Under the pieces are notes generated by a model. That model was not told the DNA's origin. It worked only from the letters and a program-made list of their open reading frames with translations, and made no database searches. DNA of 64,000 nt from contig NC_091276.1 of NCBI RefSeq assembly GCF_042100115.1, positions 620,001-684,000 of the forward strand, read 5' to 3'. The translations under genes were made by a program, and so were the position numbers. The stretch is from Alternaria dauci (taxonomy: Eukaryota > Ascomycota > Dothideomycetes > Pleosporales > Pleosporaceae). Shown here piece after piece: positions 19,811-32,545 of the stretch (its first letter is position 1; every line of letters starts with the position of its first letter).

Positions 19811-21112
19811 ATGAAGGCATTCACTGCGACCGCTCTCGCGCTTGTCGCACCCGCGACTGCGCTACTGCGCTTCCCATGCGCTCAGCTAGTCATCGACAGG
19901 TTGGATCCGCTGGTCACTCCTGGCCAGGCTCCATCCCCTCACTTGCATCAAATCCTCGGAGGCAACTCCTTCAATGTTACCATGGACCCGGAAAAGGACA
20001 TGCCTGGAGAATCAACATGCACATCCTGCCAGTTCAGCGAGGACTTTTCCGTAAGTAGCACTACTCGCATCTCGACAAGCCCAGCCCAAACTAATGAGCG
20101 TCCAGAACTACTGGACCGCCGTGCTGTACTTCAAAGCCCGAAACGGTACATACAAGCGCGTCCCTCAAATTCCAAACTCTGGCTTCAACGGCGTCAACGG
20201 AGGCATGACGGTATATTACATGCAAGACGGTCTCTACAACTTCCAGCAGACGTCCAAAGTCCAGGCCTTCCAGCCGGGCTTCCGCATGTTCATCGGCGAC
20301 GTGAATGCGCGTACCAAAGAAGAAGCCGAACGCTTCCGTCAACTGACATTTACTTGTCTCAACGACATCAACACGCGGGATCCGCAGACCCTGGATTTCC
20401 CTACTCAACCGTGCAAGACGGGCATCATGACTGCAGTTCGCTTTCCTACGTACGTCGCTTCCCCGTCTATCTGTTCACTGGGTACGATCTTGTTAACACG
20501 ATACCTAGCTGCTGGGACGGAGTAAACCTCGATTCTCCAGACCACATGGCACATATGAGTTACCCTGAGTTCGGATCTTTTGAATCTGGCGGCCCTTGCC
20601 CTGCCAGTCATCCCGTGCGCATGGGTCAGCTCTTCTACGAAGTCATCTGGGTAAGAAGTGCCCATAGCTGAACTACATGTGGAACATACACTGACTTTGT
20701 ATGCTTGACCTTGTAGGACACAAGCAAGTTTAACAACAAGGCTGATTGGCCCGAGGATGGTAGTCAACCGTTCGTCTGGAGTTTCGGCGATGGGTAAGCA
20801 CTCCTTCTCCCTCTTGCTTCGTACTTGTTACAGTGTATGCGACGAGATGCGGTCGCTAATGTTGGACGTTTGTGTAATAGAACGGGCTACGCGAACCACG
20901 GCGATTACCTATTCGGCTGGCAAGGCGACGCACTCCAACGAGCTCTAGACTCGCCTTGCTACCAGAACTGTCCTACGCTCAAGACGCAGAATGCCGCTGC
21001 GATGAACAAGTGCACCGTTCCGCGCGTTGTGAGGGAAGACATCGATGGATGGGTCAGTGAGCTACCTGGTGGCCACCAGGCGCAATATGTCAAGAAACGG
21101 TGGGCCGAGTAG
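19811..21112 (+). CDS. Secreted DUF1996-domain protein
   Basis: Five exons, 19811-20050, 20106-20449, 20509-20650, 20717-20793 and 20881-21112, give 344 residues. A signal peptide (MKAFTATALALVAPATA) is followed by the DUF1996 core: RLDPLVTPGQAPSPHLHQILGGN, CTSCQFSEDFSNYWTAVLYFKARNG-type segments, GGMTVYYMQDG, CWDGVNLDSPDHMAHMSYP, CPASHPVRMGQLFYEVIW, and TGYANHGDYLFGWQGDALQRALD near the end. The many cysteines and histidines of the family are kept. Function is unknown; members are secreted or wall-associated proteins common in Dothideomycetes. All four introns have canonical ends. Intron 1 begins GTAAGTAGCACT and ends GTCCAG, which resembles the intron inside the tRNA-Arg gene at 26740-26793. 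Confidence 0.92.
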
Positions 21113-26578: not shown

Positions 26579-26583
26579 AAAAA
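26579..26583 (-). terminator. Pol III terminator after tRNA-Gly
   Basis: A run of five T residues on the minus strand, 20 bp past the 3' end of tRNA-Gly. No run of four or more T occurs in the 31 bp between tRNA-Arg and tRNA-Gly. Confidence 0.55.
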
Positions 26584-26602: not shown

Positions 26603-26690
26603 TGCATCGGCCGGGAATCGAACCCGGGGCTAGCCGAAACTGTCCTGTGAAGGATGGCAACGGCTAATTTTACCACTAAACCACCGATGC
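26603..26690 (-). tRNA. tRNA-Gly(GCC) with a 17-nt intron
   Basis: The 5' GCATCGG pairs with 3' CCGATGC plus discriminator A. The T arm is CCGGG-TTCGATT-CCCGG. The anticodon stem is AGCCG/CGGCT with loop TTGCCAT and anticodon GCC at 26656-26658. An intron of 17 nt (26638-26654) follows the base 3' of the anticodon, the canonical position for tRNA endonuclease introns. Mature length is 71 nt. Both A and B boxes are intact. It lies 31 bp downstream of tRNA-Arg in the same orientation. Confidence 0.95.
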
Positions 26691-26721: not shown

Positions 26722-26858
26722 TGACCTAACCAGGGGTCGCTGGACAGATGTTAGGAGCTGTGTTCGAATAGAAGGCAACTGAGTGCTACTTACAACCTGG
26801 AATCTCTTGATATCGAACTGAGTCGTAGTCAAGCGCCTTGCCATTGGGCCATTAGGCC
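26722..26858 (-). tRNA. tRNA-Arg(ACG) with two introns, one spliceosome-like in the T-loop
   Basis: Removing two insertions restores a complete tRNA: acceptor GGCCTAA pairs with TTAGGTC (one G-U) plus A73; D arm GCCCAATGGCAAGGC; anticodon stem CTTGA/TCAAG with loop CTACGAA and anticodon ACG at 26824-26826; T arm CCAGG-TTCGACC-CCTGG. The first insertion, 26812-26822 (11 nt), sits at the canonical intron position. The second, 26740-26793 (54 nt), lies in the T-loop between positions 55 and 56 and starts GTAAGT, contains CTAAC 17 nt before its end and finishes CCAG. It splits the Pol III B box (GGTT / CGACCCC), while the A box TGGCCCAATGG is intact. Whether the gene is expressed is unknown. Confidence 0.9.
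26740..26793 (-). other. Spliceosomal-type intron inside a tRNA gene
   Basis: 54 nt with donor GTAAGT, branch-site-like CTAAC at 17 nt from the 3' end, and acceptor CCAG. Length and signals match the protein-gene introns of this window. The exact removal of these 54 nt regenerates the universal T-loop, which fixes the boundaries. No bulge-helix-bulge was evident by eye, and no group I or II core could fit in this length. Confidence 0.85.
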
Positions 26859-30206: not shown

Positions 30207-30847
30207 CTACCGTACCCATCCCACAGTCTTGTCCATCTTCTGTAACCAGTGTGCTAGTATACTCTCCTCATCAGGATTGTTCTGAGACTTGAAGTTCATT
30301 TCCACCATCTCTCTCACAATAGAGACGACGCCAGGCATATGCTCGTCCTTTATTCGCAAAGGAGTTTCGTGATCAAACACCTCGCTGATCAAATTCAGTG
30401 TATCGTTGATCTTCCCTTGGATATCAGAATCGAAGATCTGCTTGTAACCGTACAACTGCCTAGCCCCACACCACAGTTGCAGGACGAATTGTGAAGCTTC
30501 GATATCGGATGTTACCCCATCGAGCGTGTTGGCGGCCTCGCGTTGTCCAGGCATAAACTCAGGCTCACGAACGAGGCAGAAGAGGACTACATCTGGATGA
30601 ACCGGACAGGTGTTGTGGTGTTTGAAGTGATTGGTGAGACAGTCACGGCAATACACTCCGTGACAGGGATGAGATTGGCTTCGTATGCGGAAGACTCGTG
30701 CGGAGACAACTATGGCAGTCAGTAGAAAGCGTGGAAAAGGTTTTGGTGGTACGTACATGGGAGTGAATGTCCGCAGAGATCGCATCTTACGTTGCTCTCG
30801 ATACATTCATCGAGGAAGGATTTGCGGTCTTTCAACGATGTATCCAT
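30207..30847 (-). CDS. Small RING-like protein, paralog 1
   Basis: Two exons, 30757-30847 and 30207-30709, give 197 residues. CDLC near residue 22, PCHGVYCRDC near 50 and CPVH near 65 form a compact RING-like zinc motif. The rest is helical and not recognised. Its C-terminal region (FDSDIQGKINDTLNLISEVFDHETPLRI, then PGVVSIVREMVE) aligns with YDSNIEDEVTF and PGVREVARVML of the next gene, so the two are tandem paralogs. A ubiquitin-ligase role is possible but only inferred. The intron is 47 nt with GTACGT and CATAG ends. Confidence 0.75.
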
Positions 30848-31298
30848 GTTTTATTGTCGTTGGTGTAAGTAGGGATTCGAAAGACGGACGTGCTTCGCCT
30901 TCAAAGATATAGAAGAGAAAGGAGAGTTGAGTGCGTTCTTTTATCTTGTAGAAAGTGCTCCTGTTTATATGTGGCTAGGAGAGTGAGGGACTCCGCTACT
31001 GACTATATCACGCCCGTGATAACATGCCTAATCGACGAGAAAGCCTTGGTAAATTTAGTGCTACCAATAGTGAAAGCACTGTGTTGATTTCGAGTGAATA
31101 AGGGCTTGATCTAATTCATGCAGAGTCCGCTGGTAGCTCTGCTTCTGCCCAGCTTGCACATTTGCCAGCCTAACGAGAAACAGCAGACAAGGGTATGGTA
31201 CAAGGTTACAAGCCTTTAAGGTAGTAGAAATGATGACGTGAAAGAGATACACTGGAACTGCTCTCTCACACCTCCGATGTATCAGGCGCTAGACCTGA
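30848..31298. other. Intergenic, no gene seen
   Basis: 450 bp between two RING-like genes on the same strand. Nothing recognisable. Confidence 0.6.
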
Positions 31299-32243
31299 CT
31301 ACTGATTGCAGTGGAGTTGATACAGATTTATCCGAAAATCACGGTCCGACATCACCTCGCTTTCTTCGCGGGATTTGAACCTCCAATCAAAAACTTCCGC
31401 CAGGCAGTCCGTGCAGCTTTTAACCTCATTTTTTGTAAGCGGAACAAAGCAGCCATTTTTATGATGCTCCCCCAACATCACCCGTGCCACCTCTCTAACA
31501 CCAGGCCAGTACTCGCTGAATACAATAGGGATTCGGTACGGATTGTGCAATTCAGCCATCGAGGTCAAGCAAAAGGTGACTTCATCTTCGATATTAGAAT
31601 CGTAGATGATCTCTTCCCTTTTGTAGAGATTGTGCAGGTTTTTCCAAATGAGCTTGACGAATGACTTGGCCTGTGTCCAGGTGTCGAAGTGATGAGCTAA
31701 ATGGCAGTCATCGATAGGTACCGGTCGCGCGCCTTCGGCGACTTCGGGTTTGTCGGGTTTTAAGCAGGGTAGCTGTTTACAAAGGGGACATTTGATGGGT
31801 GGTCCGTGTACTGGGTCGGAATCGGCTTTCAATTTGTAGAGGCAATCATCCCCAAATTTGTGTGGACAGTCTGTGGACCTCATGTATCTGCGTTTAAACC
31901 GTTCGTCGATTGGCTCATGGTCTGCGTCAAACAGTTCCATACAAATGCCGCAGTGTTCGAGAATAAAGTCCTCGCTCAGAAAGTCGCAGCGCAAAGTCGC
32001 GGCGCGAATTACGCCTTGCTTTTGATGATGGCATTGTGCAGTTGTTGAAAATTTCGCTATCGTTGGGAGATGGAATAATATCGTTGAAACCTGACGTTGA
32101 TTTAACCAGCCAAGTCCTTGAAACCAGTCGGTGCAAAGCATGAAATAGTCGTGGGGGAAGCCGCCTCTGATATATCCTGTTTTGTTGCCGTCGAAGGGCA
32201 TTTCATCACACGCGTCGAATGGCGCAGAAGTCCAAGGAACCAA
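31299..32243 (-). CDS. RING-like protein, paralog 2
   Basis: A single frame of up to 314 residues. The start is uncertain: similarity to the neighbouring paralog begins only near ATLRCDFLSEDF, about residue 83, so the first part may be leader or contain an unseen intron. The RING-like region reads CGIC, CPHKFGDDC, CPLC. The expected fifth ligand between His and the last Cys of the second cluster is Gly, so the fold may be degenerate or use a nearby Asp. The C-terminal half is shared with paralog 1. Function unknown. Confidence 0.65.
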   Translation of the reverse strand: MVPWTSAPFDACDEMPFDGNKTGYIRGGFPHDYFMLCTDWFQGLGWLNQRQVSTILFHLPTIAKFSTTAQCHHQKQGVIRAATLRCDFLSEDFILEHCGICMELFDADHEPIDERFKRRYMRSTDCPHKFGDDCLYKLKADSDPVHGPPIKCPLCKQLPCLKPDKPEVAEGARPVPIDDCHLAHHFDTWTQAKSFVKLIWKNLHNLYKREEIIYDSNIEDEVTFCLTSMAELHNPYRIPIVFSEYWPGVREVARVMLGEHHKNGCFVPLTKNEVKSCTDCLAEVFDWRFKSREESEVMSDRDFRINLYQLHCNQ

Positions 32244-32545
32244 AAAACGCCATTCGATACCGTCGGCTCTCCGCAGTGGTGGATTCCAGCGCTCATACTT
32301 ACGCCTTTATGGTCTGGTGGGTGCAAAAGCAAAACCACAAAGACCCGGTTCCCGCTCAAATGTTCAGAGCGGGCACCAAAACAAAAGAATGCTAGTCTGG
32401 GACCAGCAGCCTCAAAATGCTTTCTGTAACCATTGCTACCGTGAATAACACGTATACGACAGTATCAAGTGACGAGAAGAATAGTAGTTCCTAGCTCGAG
32501 AAGCAAAACGTCTAGTGAGCGTATTTCTTAGCGTGTGCGGTCTTC

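Follow-up and report, generated by a model that had tools for sequence, protein, structure and literature searches.

Eleven tRNA genes of Alternaria dauci carry between them 13 introns of spliceosomal type, placed in the T arm or inside the anticodon. The reading that best accounts for them, to which we give a probability of about 0.86, is that these are working tRNA genes with U2-type spliceosomal introns, that they are transcribed by RNA polymerase III (Pol III), and that the intron itself brings a box B where the gene needs one. The grounds for this that are seen directly are the anatomy of the genes, the recurrence of the arrangement in 11 genes, the conserved signals, the paired changes in the exons, and the TTCGA borne by the introns.

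One of these genes lies in the window, the whole stretch of 64,000 nt that was analysed. It is a tRNA-Arg(ACG) gene with two introns on the minus strand (26722..26858). Its 5′ exon part (26794..26858; 65 nt, counting an 11-nt intron) comprises the acceptor strand, the D arm, the anticodon arm with that short intron, the 5′ strand of the T stem and T54-T55, and includes an A box, TGGCCCAATGG (26841..26851), the 5′ part of the Pol III internal promoter. The 11-nt intron after the anticodon, correctly noted in the sequence-only reading, follows position 37 (26812..26822) and is by its position of the ordinary tRNA endonuclease type. The second intron is of spliceosomal type, is 54 nt long (26740..26793), and separates T55 from C56 in the T loop. 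Read from 26793 to 26740 it runs GTAAGTAGCAC…TATTCGAACAC…CTAACATCTGTCCAG, GTAAGT…CCAG, with a 5′ splice site GTAAGT (26788..26793), a box-B-like element TATTCGAACAC (26760..26770), a branch-point sequence CTAAC (26750..26754), and a 3′ splice site CAG (26740..26742). CTAAC starts 15 nt before the end of the intron; the 17 nt given for it originally was a miscount. The 3′ exon (26722..26739; 18 nt) supplies the rest of the T loop, the 3′ strands of the T and acceptor stems, and the discriminator A. A tRNA-Gly(GCC) gene (26603..26690, minus strand; Rfam RF00005, 51.7 bits) follows 31 nt downstream, with TTTTT after it (26579..26583). Elsewhere in the window, two adjacent minus-strand open reading frames (ORFs) at 30207-32306 hold Cys/His-rich motifs that resemble RING fingers by eye.

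ARAGORN found nothing in the unspliced window gene and called tRNA-Arg(acg) in the spliced one, and, with the gathering score as threshold, the Rfam tRNA model did not find the unspliced gene. When the ends of the excised segment were varied within 25 nt either side, exactly one of 2849 cuts of at least 30 nt around the site restored a T arm of 5 bp and 7 nt with a TTCRA loop, namely the GT-AG cut 26740-26793; likewise, among 17 GT-AG pairs around the intron, the predicted one alone restored the T arm. The initial claim of a tRNA-Arg(ACG) gene with a spliceosomal-type intron in the T loop is thereby confirmed, in its coordinates, its minus strand, and the GT-AG excision that uniquely restores the T arm. 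The combination GTAAGT-CTAAC-YAG occurs four times in the 64-kb window, as two nested pairs, one of which is the Arg intron, against 0.23 expected, and none of 100 shuffles reached four. For the two Arg genes that were folded, only the spliced RNA forms the full cloverleaf; the folding energies of the spliced and unspliced RNAs of these two genes were unremarkable against shuffles. A candidate mRNA intron at 20051-20105 of the window starts with GTAAGTAGCACT, the same 12 bases as the window tRNA-Arg intron.

The whole genome (34.9 Mb, 10 contigs) was searched with the spliced gene, which yielded five tRNA-Arg(ACG) genes, a lower bound, each matching only up to one point in the T loop. Their inserts are 54-57 nt long, start with GTAAGTA and end with CAG in all five, and every one contains TTCGAA and CTRAC. 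The sequence-only reading had pointed to the other Arg(ACG) copies as the place to look, and the finding that all five are interrupted, at the same site, is the strongest argument that the intron is real. No uninterrupted cytosolic Arg(ACG) gene was found in the A. dauci genome by the spliced-gene search or by a T-loop pattern, both of which give lower bounds. The T-loop pattern, written for an uninterrupted Arg(ACG) gene, had three matches (two in the reversed control), which by their sequence are not tRNAs; a further pattern, for Arg(ACG) 5′ halves, had no matches and was uninformative, being blind to the five known copies. Another tRNA-Arg(ACG) sits in a mitochondrial-type cluster on contig C3, and is not a cytosolic gene. 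That cluster (G000:C3:3344209-3399162; L001, L002, L008-L010, L015, L018-L023), a tRNA set of mitochondrial type, is embedded in a contig of 3.4 Mb and bounded at either end by the same tRNA-Asn, in opposite orientations; it is either mitochondrial DNA joined to a chromosome by the assembly or a very large nuclear insertion.

The original observation was therefore right, and it is part of something larger: 13 such introns in 11 tRNA genes, together with a box B carried in the intron. The hosts are five Arg(ACG) genes, one Arg(CCT), two Pro(TGG), one Pro(CGG), one Lys(CTT) and one Gly(GCC), and the insertion sites, given as the two tRNA positions that flank them, number five: 34/35, 53/54, 54/55, 55/56 and 57/58. 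The Arg(ACG) introns all lie at 55/56. One Pro(TGG) gene (L036/L141), reached by a pattern search, has introns at 34/35 and 55/56; a D-arm pattern led to the other Pro(TGG) gene (L161), with introns at 34/35 and 54/55, and to the Pro(CGG) gene (L163), with an intron at 34/35, inside the anticodon. The Arg(CCT) gene (L140; 53/54) came from a 123-nt Rfam match, and the Lys(CTT) (L164; 57/58) and Gly(GCC) (L165; 57/58) genes from a combined DNA query. All three Pro genes found are interrupted inside the anticodon, two of them also in the T loop. The position-37 intron is likewise found in ten of the 11 genes, L140 being the exception, so that Pro L141 and L161 bear three introns each. In L161 and L163 the position-37 introns are long, 24 and 31 nt, and start three bases beyond the spliceosomal-type 3′ splice site; two splicing systems would thus act within three bases.

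Unspliced, none of the 11 genes was found by ARAGORN; after intron removal a cloverleaf was found for every one (for L163 once its full 3′ end was given), L161 being named Gln instead of Pro because of the placement of its position-37 intron. The Rfam tRNA threshold was reached by one unspliced gene (L140), another match, in L031, being the neighbouring tRNA-Gly. In each of the ten genes with a T-arm intron, the unique GT-AG pair that restores the T arm is the predicted intron.

The tRNA census was partial, with 63 of 931 candidates scored, so that gene counts are lower bounds and an Arg(ACG) or Pro gene that is uninterrupted but divergent in sequence could have escaped; within this partial census of the A. 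dauci genome no Pro(AGG) gene, which would be expected, was found. The Pro D-arm pattern occurred at four places (four in the reversed control), three of which are tRNA genes, two new and one known; the remaining match, L162, is not a tRNA. The first T-loop pattern had 35 matches against 40 in the reversed control, and thus no enrichment, six being recognised by context. A pattern for box-B introns before CRANNCC had six matches (control five), among which only tRNA-Pro L141 was recognised, and it missed the Arg introns because it demanded a C three bases after TTCGA. When tRNA sequences of other ascomycetes served as the query, three tRNA-Ile genes were all that came up. In viral (7) and genome (45) contig sets without fungal relatives, four of the 52 matches to the T-loop intron pattern, those bearing TTCRA, were inspected, and none is a tRNA.

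Interrupted tRNA genes invite the suspicion that they are dead. A 2014 review of tRNA introns, in the portion available, holds that, where one eukaryotic tRNA gene among many synonymous ones has an insertion in its D or T arm, it is supposedly a pseudogene in most cases, some algae excepted (PMC4090602), and three of the families here do have copies with an uninterrupted T arm: among the genes found, five of six Lys(CTT), five of six Gly(GCC), and one of two Arg(CCT). The interrupted Lys, Gly and Arg(CCT) genes could therefore be dead. As an account of the whole set, however, pseudogenes or non-functional tRNA-like loci have very little probability, since the five Arg(ACG) genes and the three Pro genes that were found are interrupted without exception. 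The codons CGT, CGC and CGA make up 72, 140 and 63 (275) of the 6553 codons in the window’s putative genes, represented by 16 stop-to-stop ORFs that do not overlap and are 300 codons or longer, a usage for which tRNA-Arg(ACG) should be indispensable.

The pattern of conservation points the same way. The 72-nt mature Arg(ACG) sequence is identical in four of the five copies, and the mean identity between mature exons is 97%; for the introns the mean is 71%, which falls to 58% (range 44-74%; shuffled 50%) when GTAAGT, TTCGAA, CTRAC and CAG are set aside. The flanks, at 54% and 52% against 49% when shuffled, are nearly shuffled-like. Splice signals and TTCGAA have thus been kept while the rest of the Arg introns drifts. 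The exons of the fifth copy, L035, differ at six bases: four belong to two stem pairs that are altered on both sides, one turns an A-U pair into G-U, and one is in the T loop. The double-sided changes include the outer T-stem pair, which closes across the intron, and all 20 pairs still form; the control for these Arg changes is weak, as 122 of 500 shuffles reach the count with just two distinct sequences to compare. In the three Pro genes, six pairs in the acceptor and anticodon stems are changed on both sides, all of them spanning introns, and 60 of 60 cells are paired; of 500 shuffles, two did as well on pairing, pairs changed and covariation score, and 173 did as well in how many pair types they had. 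As the 34/35 intron is common to all three Pro genes, their paired changes probably followed its gain. This analysis covered the Arg(ACG) and Pro genes, and for these, pseudogene status appears unlikely: exon pairing is kept by double-sided changes across the introns. Several intact Arg(ACG) genes, together with tRNA-seq that lacks a spliced product, would, in the sequence-only reading, have marked the locus as a pseudogene; none intact was found in the lower-bound searches, and the divergent copy keeps its stems by paired changes.

The signals in the introns are those of the spliceosome. All 13 begin with GT and end with AG, the 5′ splice site being GTAAGT in ten, GTAAGC in two and GTTAGT in one, and all have a YTRAY branch-point sequence, the A of which precedes the 3′ end by 10-13 nt. 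Their lengths, 50-60 nt, can be set beside those of 75 motif-defined non-tRNA candidates, which average 54 nt with 45-70 nt imposed; that set is mixed, reversed sequence having given 34, so that many of its members are due to chance. The absence of T4 runs from the 13 tRNA introns is not significant (such runs occur in 12% of random 54-mers and in 11 of the 75 motif introns). By its signals, the assignment of the window insert to U2-type spliceosomal-type introns is supported.

The inserts might instead be ectopic introns of the tRNA endonuclease (bulge-helix-bulge, BHB), of the kind known from archaea, nucleomorphs and the red alga Cyanidioschyzon, and merely resemble spliceosomal ones; archaeal T-arm sites such as 53/54 and 56/57 are known, as are nucleomorph tRNAs with non-canonical introns, according to the part of the review available (PMC4090602). 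We consider this very improbable for A. dauci. None of the five insertion sites is the eukaryotic endonuclease position 37/38, and in the canonical register the 4-bp central helix of the BHB forms zero to two of its four pairs in all 13 introns; shifted registers are uninformative, since four of four pairs are reached somewhere in every intron. The tRNA endonuclease motif whose presence in relatives the first reading of the locus had named as the sign of an ectopic tRNA intron is accordingly not seen at the junction in the canonical register, the A. dauci genome being where it was looked for. Moreover, GT, AG and a branch-point sequence at a near-fixed distance are present in 13 of 13 introns. 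None of these three is required by the tRNA endonuclease.

An intron in the T loop also disrupts the promoter. The box B of a tRNA gene, the T-loop sequence GGTTCGANTCC (consensus GTTCRANNC), has its TTCGA core cut by the nine introns at 54/55, 55/56 and 57/58. All nine contain a TTCGA of their own, against none of the four introns that spare the core (Fisher p 0.0014 for all introns and 0.048 with homologous copies counted once, a contrast that rests on few independent events). The 53/54 intron ends in AG and leaves AGTTCGAGTCC across its 3′ splice site. As background, 4% of 54-mers drawn at random from the window contain TTCGA, as do six of the 75 motif-defined non-tRNA introns (a mixed set). 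The intron elements read GTTCGA in six of nine cases and the full GTTCGANNC in three; the base before TTCGA is A, not G, in three of the five Arg introns, and the closing C of the consensus is missing in six of the nine. Judged on these features of the DNA, the intron element is a likely replacement promoter where the intron cuts box B. Its TTCGA lies 81-144 nt after the start of the A box; the spacing of the A box and box B in yeast is given as 31-93 nt in the text available (PMC4937561), so that some intron elements are unusually far away.

An A box was matched in ten of the 11 genes, and T5 or longer lies downstream of ten of the 11. In the window Arg gene, T4 is absent from the 102 nt after the gene, and the first T5 comes after the tRNA-Gly gene; with a gap of 31 nt on the same strand and no T4 between them, the Arg and Gly genes may form one dimeric transcript. 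Two copies fit less smoothly. Pro L141 has no strict A box, and Pro L163 has TTTT inside the gene, in its position-37 intron, which could stop Pol III and argues against smooth transcription of that copy.

Both would be easier to understand if Pol II made mRNA-like precursors from these genes and the precursors were spliced as mRNAs are, the TTCGA of the introns being incidental. Spliceosomal introns normally belong to Pol II transcripts, which also speaks for this view. We nevertheless regard it as improbable, given that TTCGA is present in nine of nine introns that split box B against none of the four others, and given the A boxes and the T runs. Furthermore, the U6 gene of Schizosaccharomyces has an mRNA-type intron, and fission yeast U6, a Pol III transcript, loses it, as the accessible text reports (PMC10484740). 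The sequence-only reading had left three options side by side, and on the strength of the intron-borne box B and the T runs after ten of 11 genes, Pol III transcription with access to the spliceosome is favoured among them, while Pol II transcription and loss of function are disfavoured.

In outline, then, Pol III would transcribe the interrupted gene, placed by the A box and box B. Where the T-loop intron splits box B, TFIIIC would bind the substitute within the intron; where box B is not split, the ordinary one would serve. The nuclear spliceosome would remove the 50-60-nt intron through GTAAGT, CTRAC and YAG, which would leave a normal T arm or anticodon, and the tRNA endonuclease would separately remove the short intron after position 37. 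What we infer here is that Pol III is the polymerase, that TFIIIC uses the intron element, that the spliceosome takes out the introns, and in which order the two kinds of splicing occur.

How the introns arose is best seen in the Gly family. Once spliced, L165 has the same 88-nt sequence, in which the short intron is counted, as the uninterrupted tRNA-Gly gene of the window, so that the two differ by a clean 54-nt insertion; no target-site duplication is found beyond one ambiguous base. The Lys, Gly and Arg(CCT) introns look like gains in one family member, the alternative being loss from the others, and insertion by reverse splicing, as proposed at the outset, is compatible with the clean insertion in tRNA-Gly. 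The start GTAAGTTCA is common to four of the 13 introns in three families (L140 Arg-CCT, both introns of Pro L161, and L165 Gly) and occurs in none of 18 other GTAAGT motif introns, which makes copying between tRNA genes possible. Compared with each other, the 13 introns have only short stretches in common and none is near-identical to another; in 68 comparisons, intron sequence shared between families was hard to tell from shared signals. A more far-reaching idea, which we put forward tentatively and hold to be somewhat less probable than its opposite, is that these are dedicated Pol III-compatible spliceosomal introns, intron and promoter in one, which reverse splicing or copying carries from one tRNA gene to another; an essential tRNA supply (at least Arg-ACG, probably Pro) would then depend on the spliceosome and might be regulated by way of it.

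Among known systems, U6 of Schizosaccharomyces comes nearest: it too is a Pol III gene with a spliceosomal intron and a box-B match within it. Going by the title of Frendewey et al. 1990, this match reportedly lies inside the U6 intron. In A. dauci, by contrast, the hosts are tRNAs, in several families and at five insertion sites, and an intron has TTCGA only if it cuts through the core of the original box B; both full-length matches to U6 in the A. dauci genome look uninterrupted. Fungal introner-like elements, multiplying spliceosomal introns according to the title of a paper cited in PMC11889510, are another point of comparison, and they occur in Dothideomycetes. The 13 tRNA introns differ from them in not being near-identical, and only the GTAAGTTCA start in four of them hints at copying. 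Nuclear rDNA, a Pol I gene, is a further case of a non-coding, non-Pol II gene with spliceosomal introns. These introns are described in ascomycetes (PMC11889510, consulted in part); the host there is rRNA, and a split or replaced internal promoter goes unmentioned in the portion available.

Eukaryotic introns after position 37 also have nuclear tRNA hosts, and ten of the 11 A. dauci genes carry one, but the introns described here differ from these in their sites, their GT-AG ends, their branch point and their length of 50-60 nt. Eukaryotic tRNA genes are described as limited to one intron in the available text of tRNAscan-SE 2.0 (PMC8450103). T-arm and anticodon-arm insertions, with several introns per gene, recall the non-canonical tRNA introns of archaea, Cyanidioschyzon and nucleomorphs, which differ in being of endonuclease type or very short; GT…CTRAC…AG signals are not mentioned for them in the accessible parts of the two sources (PMC4090602, PMC3978253). 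The string ‘spliceosom’ is likewise absent from the available text of the 2014 review (PMC4090602). Among the full-text literature matches listed, a scope outside which most subscription papers and bioRxiv preprints fall, there is no report of spliceosomal introns in tRNA genes.

The essential decoder of CGU, CGC and CGA was found in A. dauci only as genes that apparently need the spliceosome. To our knowledge, nuclear tRNA splicing has been described as independent of the spliceosome. That only one of the 11 genes reaches the Rfam tRNA threshold suggests why genes of this kind escape notice. For the study of intron gain, tRNA-Gly and tRNA-Lys offer pairs of interrupted and uninterrupted paralogues. 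If the reading is true, U6 is not the only Pol III transcript open to splicing, and a gene with an internal promoter can accommodate an intron there when the intron supplies a replacement. If confirmed in RNA, the production of some tRNAs in this fungus would depend on the spliceosome, and its translation capacity would be linked to it.
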